A DNA stretch of 64,000 bases from Hydrogenothermus marinus. Its GTDB lineage: Bacteria > Aquificota > Aquificia > Aquificales > Hydrogenothermaceae. The stretch covers positions 248,001-312,000 of the forward strand of contig NZ_REFO01000010.1 in assembly GCF_003688665.1 (NCBI RefSeq), given 5' to 3'. Both the position numbers and the translations under genes were made by a program. Of this stretch, positions 47,839 through 59,604 are shown in pieces (the first letter of the stretch is position 1; every line of letters begins with the position of its first letter). Below the pieces are notes generated by a model. That model made no database searches and was not told the DNA's origin. It saw nothing but the letters and a program-made list of their open reading frames with translations.

Positions 47839-47867
47839 TTGACATACTATATATAGTGGTGTTAAAT
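47839..47867 (+). promoter_or_regulatory. Sigma-70 promoter of the nrd operon
   Basis: TTGACA (47839-47844) and TTAAAT (47862-47867) are 17 bases apart. The first NrdR box fills the spacer, so repressor binding would block the polymerase. Confidence 0.7.
47844..47859 (+). promoter_or_regulatory. NrdR box 1
   Basis: ATACTATATATAGTGG resembles the NrdR consensus ACACWATATATWGTGT. Its core ACTATATATAGT is a perfect palindrome. It lies between the -35 and -10 boxes. Confidence 0.8.
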
Positions 47868-47874
47868 TAAAAAA

Positions 47875-47890
47875 ACACAATATATAGTAT
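47875..47890 (+). promoter_or_regulatory. NrdR box 2
   Basis: ACACAATATATAGTAT matches 15 of 16 positions of the NrdR consensus. Its centre is 31 bp from that of box 1, the three-helical-turn spacing typical of paired NrdR sites. It lies just after the expected transcription start and before the nrdB ribosome site AAGGAGG. Confidence 0.85.
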
Positions 47891-47903: not shown

Positions 47904-48893
47904 ATGAAGAATTTAAAATTTATCGGAAAAACATCAGTTAGAGATAATATAAGACTTACTGAAAATCCAAAATACCCAGTTTTTAAAACATTATACACTA
48001 AACAGAAAAAAGCAGTATGGTTTCCTGAAGAGCTTAATATTCAACAAGATGTCCTTGATTATAAATCACTGACACCAACAGAAAAAGATTTATTTGAAAG
48101 TGCAGTTGGATACTTTGCATCATCAGAGCTTTTAGTACAAAATGTTTTAGGAAATGGATTTTTCCCAGTATTAACAGACCCATATGCAAAGATGTCTTTT
48201 ACTGCACAGATGTTTATGGAAGATATTCATTCAGACTTTTTTGAAATAATAATAAACTCATTTGATATGGATAGAAAGAGAGTTTATAACATAACCCTTG
48301 AAGATAAACTTTTAAATGAAAAACAAGAGCTTATAATTAGAGCAGTTGATAGAATTACATATGGAAAAGCAGATCCAGACACATTAGAAGGTAAAAAACA
48401 GATTTTAACTTCTATACTTTTAAATAATATTATCCAAGAAGGCTTGTTCTTCTATTCAGCATTTGCGCATTTCTTTGCAATGAAAGATACAGGAAAAATG
48501 AAAAATATAGTTTCAGGAGTAGAACTTGTATTAATAGATGAATCTTTACACCTTCAAAACGGAATAGAAGCAATATTAACAATAGTAGAAGAAAATCCAG
48601 AAATAGTAGATGATATAAAATTTGTAGAAAATATAAGAGATACAATAATAGATGCAGTAGAACTTGAACTAAACTACTTAAAAACTAAATTCGGCGGCAC
48701 AACAATATTTGGAGTTTCTTATAAAGAATTAGAACAATATATGAAATACATAGCAGACAGAAGACTTGAAGAACTTGGCTTTGACCCTCAATTCAAAATA
48801 GATAGAAATCCACTTAAGTTTTTACAAAAAGAAGATGTCAAAAAATTAACAAATTTCTTTGAGGTATCAAGTACTGAGTATACTAATTTCTAA
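47904..48893 (+). CDS. nrdB: Class I ribonucleotide reductase small subunit, lacking the radical tyrosine
   Basis: A 329-residue R2 protein that activates NrdA for deoxyribonucleotide synthesis. Metal ligands align as Glu75 (SSELLVQN), Glu106 and His109 (MEDIHSDFF), Glu179 (IIQEGLFF), and Glu213 and His216 (IDESLHL). Two points stand out. At the site of the radical tyrosine (E. coli Tyr122, four residues after the His) there is Phe113, and the first ligand is Glu instead of Asp. Both are marks of class Ic R2 proteins with a Mn/Fe cofactor, as in Chlamydia. A Tyr in the C-terminal tail (SSTEYTNF) is kept for radical transfer. Strong AAGGAGG ribosome site. Confidence 0.95.
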   Translation: MKNLKFIGKTSVRDNIRLTENPKYPVFKTLYTKQKKAVWFPEELNIQQDVLDYKSLTPTEKDLFESAVGYFASSELLVQNVLGNGFFPVLTDPYAKMSFTAQMFMEDIHSDFFEIIINSFDMDRKRVYNITLEDKLLNEKQELIIRAVDRITYGKADPDTLEGKKQILTSILLNNIIQEGLFFYSAFAHFFAMKDTGKMKNIVSGVELVLIDESLHLQNGIEAILTIVEENPEIVDDIKFVENIRDTIIDAVELELNYLKTKFGGTTIFGVSYKELEQYMKYIADRRLEELGFDPQFKIDRNPLKFLQKEDVKKLTNFFEVSSTEYTNF

Positions 48894-48894
48894 T

Positions 48895-48909
48895 AACTTC
48901 AAAGAAGTT
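48895..48909 (+). other. Short hairpin between nrdB and the inserted nuclease gene
   Basis: AACTTC-AAA-GAAGTT, a perfect 6-bp stem with a three-base loop, begins two bases after the nrdB stop. The weak ribosome site AGGT for the nuclease gene follows immediately, so the structure may limit its translation. There is no T tract, so it is not a terminator. Confidence 0.4.
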
Positions 48910-48915
48910 AGGTAA

Positions 48916-50622
48916 ATGGATTTATTAATACTTGCTAAACAGCTTACACCAAGAGGATTAGGGATAAAACTGTCTAAAAATCCAAACTTAAAAAAAGAAC
49001 TTTATAAACTTACTAGTTTTCTTCCTGAAGATATACCACAGTCTATTAGAATATGGTGCTTAAAAAATGATATATTATCAGAGGATAAAGTTCCTAAATG
49101 TCCTGTTTGTGGTAAGCTTCCTGCTTACTCTACGGGACAGTTTAGAACATACTGCTCAAAAAGATGTGCTCAACTTGATAAAGAAAAATTTTTAAAAAAG
49201 TATGGTGTAGAACATCATTTAAAGCTTGAATCAGTTAAGGAAAAAAGAAAAAAAACTGTTCTTCAAAAATACGGAGTAGAAAATATAGGAATTATTACAA
49301 GAGAAAAAGCAAAAAAAACAACATTAAAAAAATATGGCGTAGATAACTATACAAAAACAGCAGAATACAAGATAAAAGCTAAAAAAACTTCTTTAAAAAA
49401 GTATGGAACAACTCATCCTATGAAATCTACGACTATAAAAGAAAAAGTTTTGGTAGCTTTAAAGAAAAATAGAAAAGAAATAACAGAAAAAACTAAACAA
49501 TCATTATTAGAAAAATATGGTGTAGAAACACCTATGCATATTCCTCATGTAAAAGAAAAAGTATTAGAAAATTACAAATATAAAGTATGGGAAAGATTAT
49601 TAATAAGACTAAAAAAGCATAATATAAAACCTTTGTTTGATTATGAATTTTACAAAAAGATAAATGTAAAAGATAGAAATAGATTTCCATTTTTATGTTT
49701 AAAATGTGGTAATAAATTTTTAGATCATTTAGACAATGGAAACATTCCTTTATGTCCTGTATGTACAAAAACTCAAACAAAACCTGAAAGAGTAATAACA
49801 AAATTTTTAAAAGAAAAATCAATAAGATTTGAAACAGGAAATAGAAAAATTCTAAAGTCTCTTGAAATAGATATTTATGTTCCAGATAGAAAAATAGCTA
49901 TTGAAGTAAATGGAATTTATTATCACACTTATGAAAATCTTATAAAACTTAGGAATTTATCACCAAAACAAGCAAAGAATTACCATAGACTAAAATGGAT
50001 TTTAGCAACAGAAAAAGGTATAAGAATAATTCAGTTTTGGGATAGTGAGATTATTAACAAGAAAGATATAGTTTTTAGTATTATAGGTTCAGCTTTAGGG
50101 TTAAATAAAAAGATTTATGCTAAAAACTGTAAAATAGAAAAAATAGGAGAAAAACAAGCTTATGAATTTTTTATAGAAAATCATATATATAATCAACCTA
50201 TCTTAGCTAAAAATTATGCTTTAGTTTTTAATGGAGAAATATTACAAGTAATATCTATTGGAAAAGCAAGGTTTGGACTTGATGGATACGAGATTTATAG
50301 AATAGCTACTAAAAACGGATTTAATGTTATTGGAGGAACTGGGAAACTAATAAAATATGTTTTAAAAGATTTAGCTATAAAAAAACTTTACTCTTATGTT
50401 GATTTAAGACTTTTTACAGGAAAAAGTTTAGAAAAGTTAGGCTTTAAAAGAATAAAAATTACAAAGCCTGATTATTACTATACAAAAGATTATATAAATC
50501 TAGTACAAAGAGAATGGTTTATGAAATCTAAAACAGGTATTTCTGAAAAGTTATTTGCAGAAAAAAATGGATATAAAAAAATATATGGTGTAGGTAATGC
50601 TTTATATTTATTAGAAACTTAA
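48916..50622 (+). CDS. Homing-endonuclease-like protein (Vsr-like nuclease plus GNAT-like domain)
   Basis: A 568-residue protein of phage type. An N-terminal zinc knuckle (Cys62, Cys65, Cys80, Cys84) is followed by five KYG-V-E/D-type repeats (about 94-211; KKYGVEHHL, QKYGVENIG, KKYGVDNYT, KKYGTTHPM, EKYGVETPM) and a second CXXC pair (261/264, 280/283). The nuclease core (about 288-385) reads SLEIDIYVPDRKIAIEVNGIYYHT, then NYHRLKWILATEKGIRIIQFWDSEI, the pattern of Vsr-like EDxHD homing endonucleases. Candidate residues are Glu317, Asp319, Glu330, His337 and His357. The C-terminal part (about 400-568; KIYAKNCKIEKIG, NHIYNQPILA, FNVIGGTGKLIKY, SYVDLRLFTGKSLEKLGF) is GNAT-like and accompanies such nucleases in large phages. 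It is wedged between nrdB (22 bases) and nrdA (16 bases). Confidence 0.85.
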   Translation: MDLLILAKQLTPRGLGIKLSKNPNLKKELYKLTSFLPEDIPQSIRIWCLKNDILSEDKVPKCPVCGKLPAYSTGQFRTYCSKRCAQLDKEKFLKKYGVEHHLKLESVKEKRKKTVLQKYGVENIGIITREKAKKTTLKKYGVDNYTKTAEYKIKAKKTSLKKYGTTHPMKSTTIKEKVLVALKKNRKEITEKTKQSLLEKYGVETPMHIPHVKEKVLENYKYKVWERLLIRLKKHNIKPLFDYEFYKKINVKDRNRFPFLCLKCGNKFLDHLDNGNIPLCPVCTKTQTKPERVITKFLKEKSIRFETGNRKILKSLEIDIYVPDRKIAIEVNGIYYHTYENLIKLRNLSPKQAKNYHRLKWILATEKGIRIIQFWDSEIINKKDIVFSIIGSALGLNKKIYAKNCKIEKIGEKQAYEFFIENHIYNQPILAKNYALVFNGEILQVISIGKARFGLDGYEIYRIATKNGFNVIGGTGKLIKYVLKDLAIKKLYSYVDLRLFTGKSLEKLGFKRIKITKPDYYYTKDYINLVQREWFMKSKTGISEKLFAEKNGYKKIYGVGNALYLLET

Positions 50623-50638
50623 AAAGGAGGTTTTTTAT

Positions 50639-53026
50639 ATGCAAAGAATAGTTGTAAAAAGGGATGGAACAGAAGAAAAATTTCAGATGAAAAAACTTAT
50701 AAATGCAATATTTGCACTTTTTGATGGTATGGATCTACCTGATGACTGGGAAATAGCATTTAGAATTGCTAAAGAACTTGATTTAAAGATACCTGAAAGA
50801 GTTACAACAGAAGAGCTTGATTTTTTAGTTTTAAAAGCTATAGAACAGTTAATACCAAATCATTATATTTATGATACTTTAGCAACAAGACAGCTTAAAA
50901 AGATAATAAATAGAAAGATAGAAAGAAGATTTAAATCTTTTAAAGAAGCTCTTGAGTATGGAGTAAAAGAAGGATTATATAAAGAAGATATTTTAAATTT
51001 TGACTTAAATAAAATAGAAAATGCTATAGATTATTCAAGGGATGATCTTCTTGATTATTTTGGACTTACTACATTAAAAGATAGATATTTTACAAAAGAC
51101 AGAAATGGAGAAATTATAGAAAAGCCTCAATGGTTTTTTATGAGAGTAGCTCTTGGAATAGGAAATAATGAAGAAGAAGTAATAAAAATCTATAATAAAA
51201 TATCAAAACTTGAATACTTACACTCAACACCTACCCTTTATAACTCTGGAACTATTACACACCAGTACTCTAGTTGTTATGTAAACGTCATAAGTGACTC
51301 TCTTGAATCAATAATGGATAAAGCTAAAGAAACTGCATTTTTAGCAAAATATGCAGGTGGTGTTGGAACAGATATTACAAGAATAAGAGCTACAGGTTCA
51401 CCTATAAAATCTTTAAATGCAAAATCTTCAGGAGTAATACCTTTTATAAAAATATTTGACACAATTGTAAATGCTATACAACAAGGCGGTAGAAGAAGAA
51501 GCTCACAAGTAATGTATATACAACCTTGGCATATGGACATAGAGGCATTTTTAGATTTAAGAGAAACTACAGGAAATCCTTACTTTAGAACGCCTTCATT
51601 AAATACTGCTCTTTGGATGCCTGATGAAATTATGAGAAGAATAAAAGAAGGAGAGCCTCTATATCTTTTTGATCCAGCAGAATGTCCAGAACTTGTTGAA
51701 TCTTGGGGAGAAGACTTTGCTAAAAAATACAATGAATGTATTAAAAAAGCAGAATCAGGCCAATTAAGATTATGGAAGAAATTAGATTCAAGAGAATGGT
51801 TTAGAAGATATTTATTTAAACTTGCAAAAACAGGACATCCATGGCTAACATTTAAAGACAGACATAATGAAAACAACCCTTGCCCGCAATATTCAGTTAT
51901 AAACTCTAGTAATCTTTGCAGCGAAATCTCAATTCCGAATTCACCGGAAAGCACCGCAGTGTGTACTTTAGCGTCTGTTAATCTCGCTAAACATATAGAT
52001 AAAGAGAAAAAAGATATAGATTGGGATAAATTGAAAGATACCATAGAAACTATGGTATTAGCCCTTGACAATATTCTTGATAAAAATTTTTATCCTTCTG
52101 AAGAATCTAAGAAAAATACAATGGACTTAAGACCTCTTGGTATTGGATTAATGGGATTTGCAGAAACCCTTGTAGAACTTGGAATTGCCTATGATAGTGA
52201 TGAAGCAGTGCAGTTTGCAGAAAAAGTAGCTAAATTTATGAGAGATACTGCTTATGCAAAATCAGAAGAGCTTGCAAAAGAAAGAGGCCCATTCCCACAT
52301 TATGAAGAAATGAAACAAAAAGGAAATCCATATCCATATCCACCAAGAAGAAATGCAGTACTTCTTGCAATAGCACCTACAGCATCTATTTCTATAATAG
52401 CAGGAACTACATCTTCTATAGATAGCTATTTTTCTAATGTTTATTCAAGGGATACCCTTTCAGGTAAATTCATAGTTGTAAATAAACAGCTTATGAAAAA
52501 ACTTGAAGAACTTGATATGTGGAATGAAGAAATGGCAGAAAAAATAAAAGCAGATGGTGGTTCTATCCAGTATATAGAAGAACTTGATGGAAAGATAAAC
52601 AAAGAACTATTTAAAGGAGCTTATGAAATTCATCCAAAAAGACAGATAGATATAGCAGCTGCTTTCCAAAAATATATAGATCAAGCAGTTTCAAAATCTA
52701 TTTATATAGAAGAAGATTTAAGAGATGATATGTTTGACATTTACATGTATGCTTGGGAAAAAGGTTTAAAATCAACATATTATTGCTTTATTGATAAAAC
52801 AATTAAAGGAGAAAAATATACTCAAAAAGTAAACAAAAGAGGCACAAGAAGAGGATTTGGATTAGTAAAAGAAAGAGTAAAAAATCAGGAAGAAGATATC
52901 CAACATCTTGAAAAAATGGCAAGAGAAAAATACGGTGATGAAGTAGTAGATAAAGTAAAATCAGGGAATATAGAAGCTTGCCCAACAGACCCACTTTTAA
53001 ATAAAATCTGCCCAAGTTGTGAATAA
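50639..53026 (+). CDS. nrdA: Class I ribonucleotide reductase large subunit
   Basis: A 795-residue R1 subunit with an N-terminal ATP cone (about 1-90; IVVKRDGTEEKFQMKKLINAI). Active-site residues are Cys213 in SSCYVNV, Asn425, Cys427 and Glu429 in NLCSEI, and Cys442 in STAVCTLASVN. The C-terminal pair CPSCE serves thioredoxin exchange. No intein interrupts it. It has its own AAAAGGAGG site just after the inserted nuclease gene. Codons around 51878-51990 and, less clearly, 51258-51305 are GC-richer than the rest (GCG, CCG, AGC, ACC, CTC, GTG), although the protein is normal. A hairpin terminator overlaps its stop. Confidence 0.96.
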   Translation: MQRIVVKRDGTEEKFQMKKLINAIFALFDGMDLPDDWEIAFRIAKELDLKIPERVTTEELDFLVLKAIEQLIPNHYIYDTLATRQLKKIINRKIERRFKSFKEALEYGVKEGLYKEDILNFDLNKIENAIDYSRDDLLDYFGLTTLKDRYFTKDRNGEIIEKPQWFFMRVALGIGNNEEEVIKIYNKISKLEYLHSTPTLYNSGTITHQYSSCYVNVISDSLESIMDKAKETAFLAKYAGGVGTDITRIRATGSPIKSLNAKSSGVIPFIKIFDTIVNAIQQGGRRRSSQVMYIQPWHMDIEAFLDLRETTGNPYFRTPSLNTALWMPDEIMRRIKEGEPLYLFDPAECPELVESWGEDFAKKYNECIKKAESGQLRLWKKLDSREWFRRYLFKLAKTGHPWLTFKDRHNENNPCPQYSVINSSNLCSEISIPNSPESTAVCTLASVNLAKHIDKEKKDIDWDKLKDTIETMVLALDNILDKNFYPSEESKKNTMDLRPLGIGLMGFAETLVELGIAYDSDEAVQFAEKVAKFMRDTAYAKSEELAKERGPFPHYEEMKQKGNPYPYPPRRNAVLLAIAPTASISIIAGTTSSIDSYFSNVYSRDTLSGKFIVVNKQLMKKLEELDMWNEEMAEKIKADGGSIQYIEELDGKINKELFKGAYEIHPKRQIDIAAAFQKYIDQAVSKSIYIEEDLRDDMFDIYMYAWEKGLKSTYYCFIDKTIKGEKYTQKVNKRGTRRGFGLVKERVKNQEEDIQHLEKMAREKYGDEVVDKVKSGNIEACPTDPLLNKICPSCE

Positions 53027-59140: not shown

Positions 59141-59604
59141 TATTGATCCTTTTTATTTTTTTCTATCTCTTTTATAGTTTTTTCAAAATCTTTTAAATCT
59201 TTAAACTGATTATAAACTGATTTAAATCTGATATAGCTTATTACATCTATCTCTTTTAATTTTTCTTGAACTAAATCTCCTATTTCTAAACTTTCAACAA
59301 GCAATTTACCTTCGTCAATTAAAAATTTTTCTATATCTTCAGCAATTTCATTTGCCTGTTTTTCTGAAACAGGTCTATTTTTAGATGCAAGCATTATTCC
59401 CCTAACTATTTTAGATTTATCAAAAGGTTCTGTTATTCCACTTTTTTTCTTAACAATTATTTTTTCTTCTTCTTGTCTTTCATAAGTAGTAAATCTTGTT
59501 CCACATTCTATACATTCTCTTCTTCTTCTTATTACAGTTGCATCTTTTGAAAGCCTTGTATCTATAACCTTATCATTTATAGAACCACATTTTGGACATT
59601 TCAT
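59140..59604 (-). CDS. nrdR: Transcriptional repressor NrdR
   Basis: A 154-residue regulator of ribonucleotide reductase genes. The zinc ribbon has Cys3-xx-Cys6 (CPKCGSINDKVIDTR) and CIECGTRFTTYER. The ATP cone covers about 49-139 (IIVKKSGITEPFDKSKIVRGIMLA), through which ATP or dATP sets the oligomer and DNA binding. The length is exact for the family. Its target is almost certainly the pair of NrdR boxes at 47844-47890, about 11 kb away in this window. It sits in an operon with hemL, an NTF2-like gene, the antiporter and uppP. Confidence 0.97.
   Translation of the reverse strand: MKCPKCGSINDKVIDTRLSKDATVIRRRRECIECGTRFTTYERQEEEKIIVKKKSGITEPFDKSKIVRGIMLASKNRPVSEKQANEIAEDIEKFLIDEGKLLVESLEIGDLVQEKLKEIDVISYIRFKSVYNQFKDLKDFEKTIKEIEKNKKDQ

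Follow-up and report, generated by a model that had tools for sequence, protein, structure and literature searches.

A probable free-standing homing endonuclease gene of the Hef-like type in the nrd operon of Hydrogenothermus marinus

To our knowledge, most of the free-standing homing endonucleases described so far come from phages. The described systems closest to the gene considered here are Hef and the Hef-like proteins (of phage U5, KMC07_gp181 of Escherichia phage vB_EcoM_G8, F-LimVIII of LIMEstone, and Campylobacter phage IBB_35), which belong to the same phrog_3339 family over their full length and have the same architecture. Two of them also occupy the same kind of site: Hef of phage U5 is reported to lie between nrdA and nrdB, where it replaces mobE (IBB_35 genome paper, PMC3322345), and KMC07_gp181 lies exactly between nrdA and nrdB of the T4-like vB_EcoM_G8 (27% identity, E=1e-34). 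Unlike phage Hef, found in the order nrdA-Hef-nrdB, our gene is located in a bacterial chromosome in the order nrdB-endonuclease-nrdA; its protein shares only 26-34% identity with the phage Hef-like copies, and the nrd-linked phage copy is not its nearest. MobE of T4 and Aeh1 is also free-standing at the nrdA/nrdB junction, and RNA hairpins restrain T4/Aeh1 homing endonucleases, mobE included, its expression being held by a hairpin or by coupling (PMC2988022); however, MobE is an HNH nuclease of unrelated fold in a phage genome, whereas the core of our protein is Vsr/EDxHD-like, and no HNH nuclease model of Pfam matched its 568 residues. The initial annotation of this DNA had named mobE as the analogue, rightly in that phage homing endonucleases invade this junction, but Hef, which takes the place of mobE at this junction in some T4-like phages, is the nearer one.

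Three further systems share a part of the picture. I-Bth0305I (3r3p), an EDxHD enzyme encoded by a phage group I intron, resembles our protein in its nuclease core, both in profile and in fold searches, but its solved part has no GNAT domain and our gene is free-standing. Phage Mu Mom, which has the fold predicted for the C-terminal domain of our protein, is a stand-alone DNA modification enzyme, while our domain is Mom-like by predicted fold. The nrd inteins of Aquificota, such as that of Aquifex aeolicus (PMC8772380), are homing elements in the same operon but, in contrast to our free-standing gene, are protein-splicing inserts inside the coding sequence with LAGLIDADG nucleases.

Hydrogenothermus marinus is a hot-spring bacterium. 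The 64,000-nucleotide stretch analysed here (the window) belongs to a 505-kb contig of an assembly of 1.604 Mb that is 99.95% complete, and contains the following features of the nrd operon and its probable regulator.

47846-47888, forward strand: NrdR-like box pair upstream of nrdB, ACTATATATAGT at 47846-47857 and ACAATATATAGT at 47877-47888, 31 bp apart
47904-48893, forward strand: nrdB, class I ribonucleotide reductase small subunit (PF00268, E=1.4e-62; NCBIfam)
48916-50622, forward strand: putative Hef-like homing endonuclease gene, 568 aa, single ATG start, filling the nrdB-nrdA spacer
50623-50630, forward strand: nrdA Shine-Dalgarno AAAGGAGG, intact
50639-53026, forward strand: nrdA, large subunit (family model), 795 aa, no intein
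59167-59604, reverse strand: nrdR, about 6 kb past the downstream end of the nrd operon

The family models bear out nrdB and nrdA as the neighbours, as the initial annotation had it, and the coordinates agree with its further statements that the gene fills the spacer with 22 bases from the nrdB stop and 16 bases to the nrdA ATG, and that the ribosome site of nrdA is kept. Exact matches to ACWATATATWGT occur only twice in the 64-kb window, both upstream of nrdB, and from the box pair and the presence of nrdR in the window it would be reasonable to suggest NrdR control of the operon. The spacing of the genes suggests that nrdB, the endonuclease gene and nrdA are co-transcribed.

The encoded protein has the following order of domains.

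49096-49179, forward strand: zinc ribbon 1, YacG-like, C62-x2-C65 and C80-x3-C84
49180-49530, forward strand: KYG repeats (DUF7487), PF24308 found in 59/59 family members; helical in the model and predicted to bind DNA
49690-49767, forward strand: zinc ribbon 2, C261-x2-C264 and C280-x2-C283
49777-50097, forward strand: nuclease core, Vsr / I-Bth0305I-like (EDxHD), by invariant residues in the alignment, profile and fold
50101-50619, forward strand: C-terminal GNAT domain, phage Mu Mom (8bv8) ranked first by Foldseek

The match to the profile phrog_3339 (homing endonuclease), the Hef-like homing endonucleases of large phages, has an E-value of 2.1e-94 and scores 318 bits; it is divided into two stretches, of which that over residues 180-566 is the better. 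In single-sequence search DUF7487 is matched at 74 bits, and the YacG-like and FmdB-like zinc ribbons and Vsr appear only as sub-threshold matches. In an alignment of 59 family sequences, including 52 relatives from viral contigs, E317, D319, E330, G333, H337, H357 and K360 are invariant (59/59), and a PDB profile search with this alignment retrieves I-Bth0305I (3r3p) at E=3.8e-7; opposite D319 and H337, both of which are invariant in the family, the 3r3p chain carries Ala. The AlphaFold2 model (mean pLDDT 90) has a pTM of 0.55, which leaves the packing of the domains uncertain; in Foldseek searches its core matches 3r3p (TMt 0.75) and its C-terminal third matches GNAT folds, with phage Mu Mom at the top (E=4e-6). 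Thus the architecture of zinc knuckles, KYG repeats, Vsr-like core and GNAT-like tail read from the letters in the initial annotation is upheld by models, alignment and structure prediction, its tail now being more specifically Mom-like; profile and fold searches give a nuclease fold for the core, and the active-site-like residues are intact in the window copy. A chance ORF is excluded by the phrog_3339 match, by seven orthologues in relatives at 64-66% identity, and by a low dN/dS (0.116 in one and 0.124 in the other of the two closest pairs). Such values, of about 0.12, indicate copies under selection for function, although host function could be an alternative source of it.

The site 3' of nrdB was readable in 31 genomes of the family, and it was found in four states. 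Eight genomes carry the gene, complete in G000, G002, G003, G005, G013 and G015 and cut by contig ends in G001 and G025, the carriers being assigned to Hydrogenothermaceae, Persephonella and Hydrogenothermus (Aquificota). Four retain decayed remnants: in G007, G023 and G032 a stub of the N-terminus is left, and in G004 residues ~11-24 persist as a frameshifted scar. Another five have an unrelated LAGLIDADG-type gene, and 14 are empty, with spacers of 13-310 bp between intact nrd genes, so that the empty site for which the initial annotation suggested looking in related Aquificales does exist. The gene is a complete ORF between two complete nrd genes, outside any intron or intein, and with such empty spacers in relatives it has the status of a free-standing element. 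It occupies one place per genome, always 3' of nrdB, and no second full copy was found elsewhere in any genome examined. Where nrdA does not follow (G013, G025) the gene is still 3' of nrdB, which suggests the nrdB end as its anchor. Most occupied relatives are fragmentary MAGs, and for this reason mis-binning of single contigs is possible (e.g. G015, 3.1 kb); the intact copies are also few.

In each of the remnants L060 (G007), L061 (G032) and L062 (G023) a short ORF preserves the same ~45 codons of the N-terminus. Between G023 and G032 this stub ORF has 1/123 differences against 69/987 in nrdB (p 0.005), which could reflect either a recent spread of the stub or selection acting on it. As to the operon itself, nrdB is separated from nrdA in genus g9 (L041 and L048, from G013 and G025), and in G020 a match to the RNR large subunit falls within an open frame of 1252 aa on a different contig (G020:C31).

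The Mom-like domain, as assigned from the predicted model, is not required for homing and its role in the protein is unexplained, which brings us to the first of the other explanations. With Mom as the top fold match and purifying selection on the gene, one may think of a restriction-modification-like element whose Mom-like domain modifies host adenines, whose core cuts unmodified DNA, and which is kept for protection from phages; Mom-REase fusions in jumbo phages have been predicted to act in this manner (PMC7824862). We consider it improbable: no PADLOC defence model was matched, Pfam recognises Mom in only 8/59 family members (best E 7.8e-7), and the gene has settled not in a defence island but always at the same site of an essential operon, and is decayed or missing in relatives, as homing predicts.

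The history of the gene is not that of its operon. The host tree of nrdB and nrdA joins the six genomes of genus g1 (support 100/99), whereas the gene tree places the window copy with g9 (96/91, and 100/99 without the outgroup) and apart from the other g1 copies; monophyly of g1 is rejected for the gene (AU p 6.3e-5 with the outgroup and 1.9e-4 without it), and the grouping of the window with g9 is rejected by the host data (p 5e-49). The vertical phylogeny, which the initial annotation had named as something that would speak against its reading, is therefore not what we see, as the window copy groups with another genus. In one pair, G003-G005, dS is 0.33 for the gene vs 0.77 for nrdB and 0.90 for nrdA. 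In the same pair the ends adjoining the gene are more alike, with 6.4% vs 13.2% differences for nrdB (Fisher p 0.0015) and 3.3% vs 15.3% for nrdA, this being one of 15 pairs with the split chosen after looking, and p about 0.02 after correction for the 15 pairs. Such raised identity of the flanks is co-conversion-like, and may be what co-conversion would leave; between the window copy and the g9 copies no recombination tract was seen.

Against the 12 phage sequences included in the tree, all eight bacterial copies fall into a single clade (support 100/100). With losses common as well, it could be suggested that an old insertion was inherited vertically with many losses and has no current or recent mobility, but this is still less probable, as vertical descent within g1 is rejected by the gene tree, one pair has a gene dS below half of that of its flanks, and intact copies show no decay of the ORF despite high dS. 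Phage relatives number 416 records, many annotated as homing endonuclease or Hef(-like), and the vB_EcoM_G8 copy is no nearer in identity than other phage copies. Together with the single Hydrogenothermaceae clade, this leads us to think that the shared nrd site was probably chosen independently and does not reflect a recent shared transfer. A single-sequence scan of viral contigs gave no close relatives, and a profile gave distant ones only; home-made HMMs found no nrd genes beside the IMG/VR relatives, though vB_EcoM_G8 is an annotated phage case, and the search for a plasmid source gave just one weak match.

The second gene found in the spacers, in G008 (cut), G009, G018, G026 and G028, is likewise read as a free-standing homing endonuclease gene, but is unrelated to the Hef-like one; it encodes 317 aa with zinc fingers and LAGLIDADG motifs (phrog_4645, E=5e-31). 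The two types were never found together in one spacer.

L018:2445-3395, L020:462-1409, L026:451-1401, L038:5610-6560 and L027:2455-2940: LAGLIDADG-type gene in nrdB-nrdA spacers
L042:3959-7612, L081:2442-6107, L080 and L038: nrdA intein, site at ~residue 213
L085:4056-7700, L084, L086, L088, L046 and L047: nrdA intein, site at ~residue 427

In four of the five genomes with the LAGLIDADG gene (G009, G018, G026, G028) the C-terminus of nrdB reads QNF, and in nearly all others TNF; the QNF ends are possibly a co-converted flank of that gene. Many relatives have inteins at the two sites in nrdA, with Hint/Intein_splicing and LAGLIDADG domains in those scanned, and neither site is occupied in nrdA of the window. 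In G058, a genome of the same order (L050:4768-6828, reverse strand), nrdB is split inside a 687-aa open frame by an intein-like insertion, as known in Aquifex.

At the junction of nrdB and the endonuclease gene there is an inverted repeat with the nrdB stop codon in its loop.

48846-48865, forward strand: 5' arm of the inverted repeat, within the final codons of nrdB, TTAACAAATTTCTTTGAGGT
48896-48915, forward strand: 3' arm, ACTTCAAAGAAGTTAGGTAA, ending at the base before the endonuclease ATG

A stretch of 14-26 nt directly after the nrdB stop is complementary to the nrdB end in all genomes that hold the gene or its remnant (12/12) and in none of the others (0/20), the call requiring that no more than 3 of 100 shuffles be as good, a threshold set after seeing the data. 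The arms pair in 83% of cells vs 29-55% when slid. The covariation score is 0.127 vs a shuffled mean of 0.105, reached by 32/500 shuffles, and one pair (columns 18-65) has changed at both of its positions in four sequences; with covariation this weak, the complementarity of the arms is strong but partly inherited. At 37 C the hairpin is predicted for each of the 12 sequences; at 65 C the prediction is strong for most intact copies and weak for G015. In G000 it is predicted to form at both temperatures. A transcription terminator was rejected, since no run of T follows the hairpin. By analogy with the RNA hairpins of T4 and Aeh1, it may be a translational gate opened by ribosomes that finish nrdB, and a DNA role of the repeat, e.g. 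as an autoregulatory or recognition site, is possible too. One may go further and picture a homing nuclease that has a Mom-like modification domain of its own and whose RNA hairpin is built from the last codons of its target gene; such a nuclease would mark the occupied site against recutting and use the ribosomes of the host gene to gate its own translation. Taken as a whole, we regard this picture as unlikely.

From the sequence data discussed above we propose, with a probability of roughly 0.87, that the gene is a free-standing Hef-like homing endonuclease gene with an EDxHD core, homing to the 3' side of nrdB, and most likely active or recently active and not domesticated. In an allele devoid of the gene, the zinc ribbons and KYG repeats would bind a long target located around the end of nrdB, the Vsr-like core would cut the bound allele, and repair of the break from an occupied allele would copy in the gene plus its flanks; insertion of the gene at the cut site would thereby remove the target. 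Being placed in the spacer, the insertion spares both nrd genes and the ribosome site of nrdA, and the gene would be transcribed together with them from the presumably NrdR-controlled nrd promoter and probably translated weakly, coupled to nrdB via the element-borne hairpin that may act over its start region. That the gene is a domesticated nuclease regulating or tuning the nrd operon, for instance coupling nrdB to nrdA expression, is the least probable explanation, for which the low dN/dS, the conserved position, the junction hairpin and the near-identical G023/G032 stubs could be cited, but most relatives whose nrd operon is intact lack the gene or have it in decayed form, and the gene stays with nrdB in the two genomes whose nrdA is not beside it, and has a tree discordant with that of the hosts. 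The initial annotation, whose reading as a phage-type homing endonuclease in a bacterial nrd operon is supported by family, fold, empty sites and the non-vertical tree, had added that the gene was possibly domesticated; this addition is unsupported, because occupancy is patchy, decayed copies exist and an unrelated endonuclease uses the same site.

In the limited open literature we found no report of a free-standing homing endonuclease gene cycling through an operon of a bacterial chromosome. With occupied, decayed and empty alleles and a discordant tree, a cycle of gain, decay and loss can be followed at one bacterial chromosomal site. The novelty lies in a cellular setting where every stage can be observed, in a rival gene at the same site and in an element-linked repeat. 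As about 30 related genomes show the site intact, decayed, empty or held by the rival, the gain-decay-loss model becomes testable in a cellular lineage. Natural empty targets would also make these thermostable EDxHD nucleases a practical system for studying how targets are recognised. Finally, the nrd junction has been taken by the Hef-like family, known there from T4-like phages, by the HNH mobE and by a LAGLIDADG gene, which suggests that nrd genes serve generally as a landing site.
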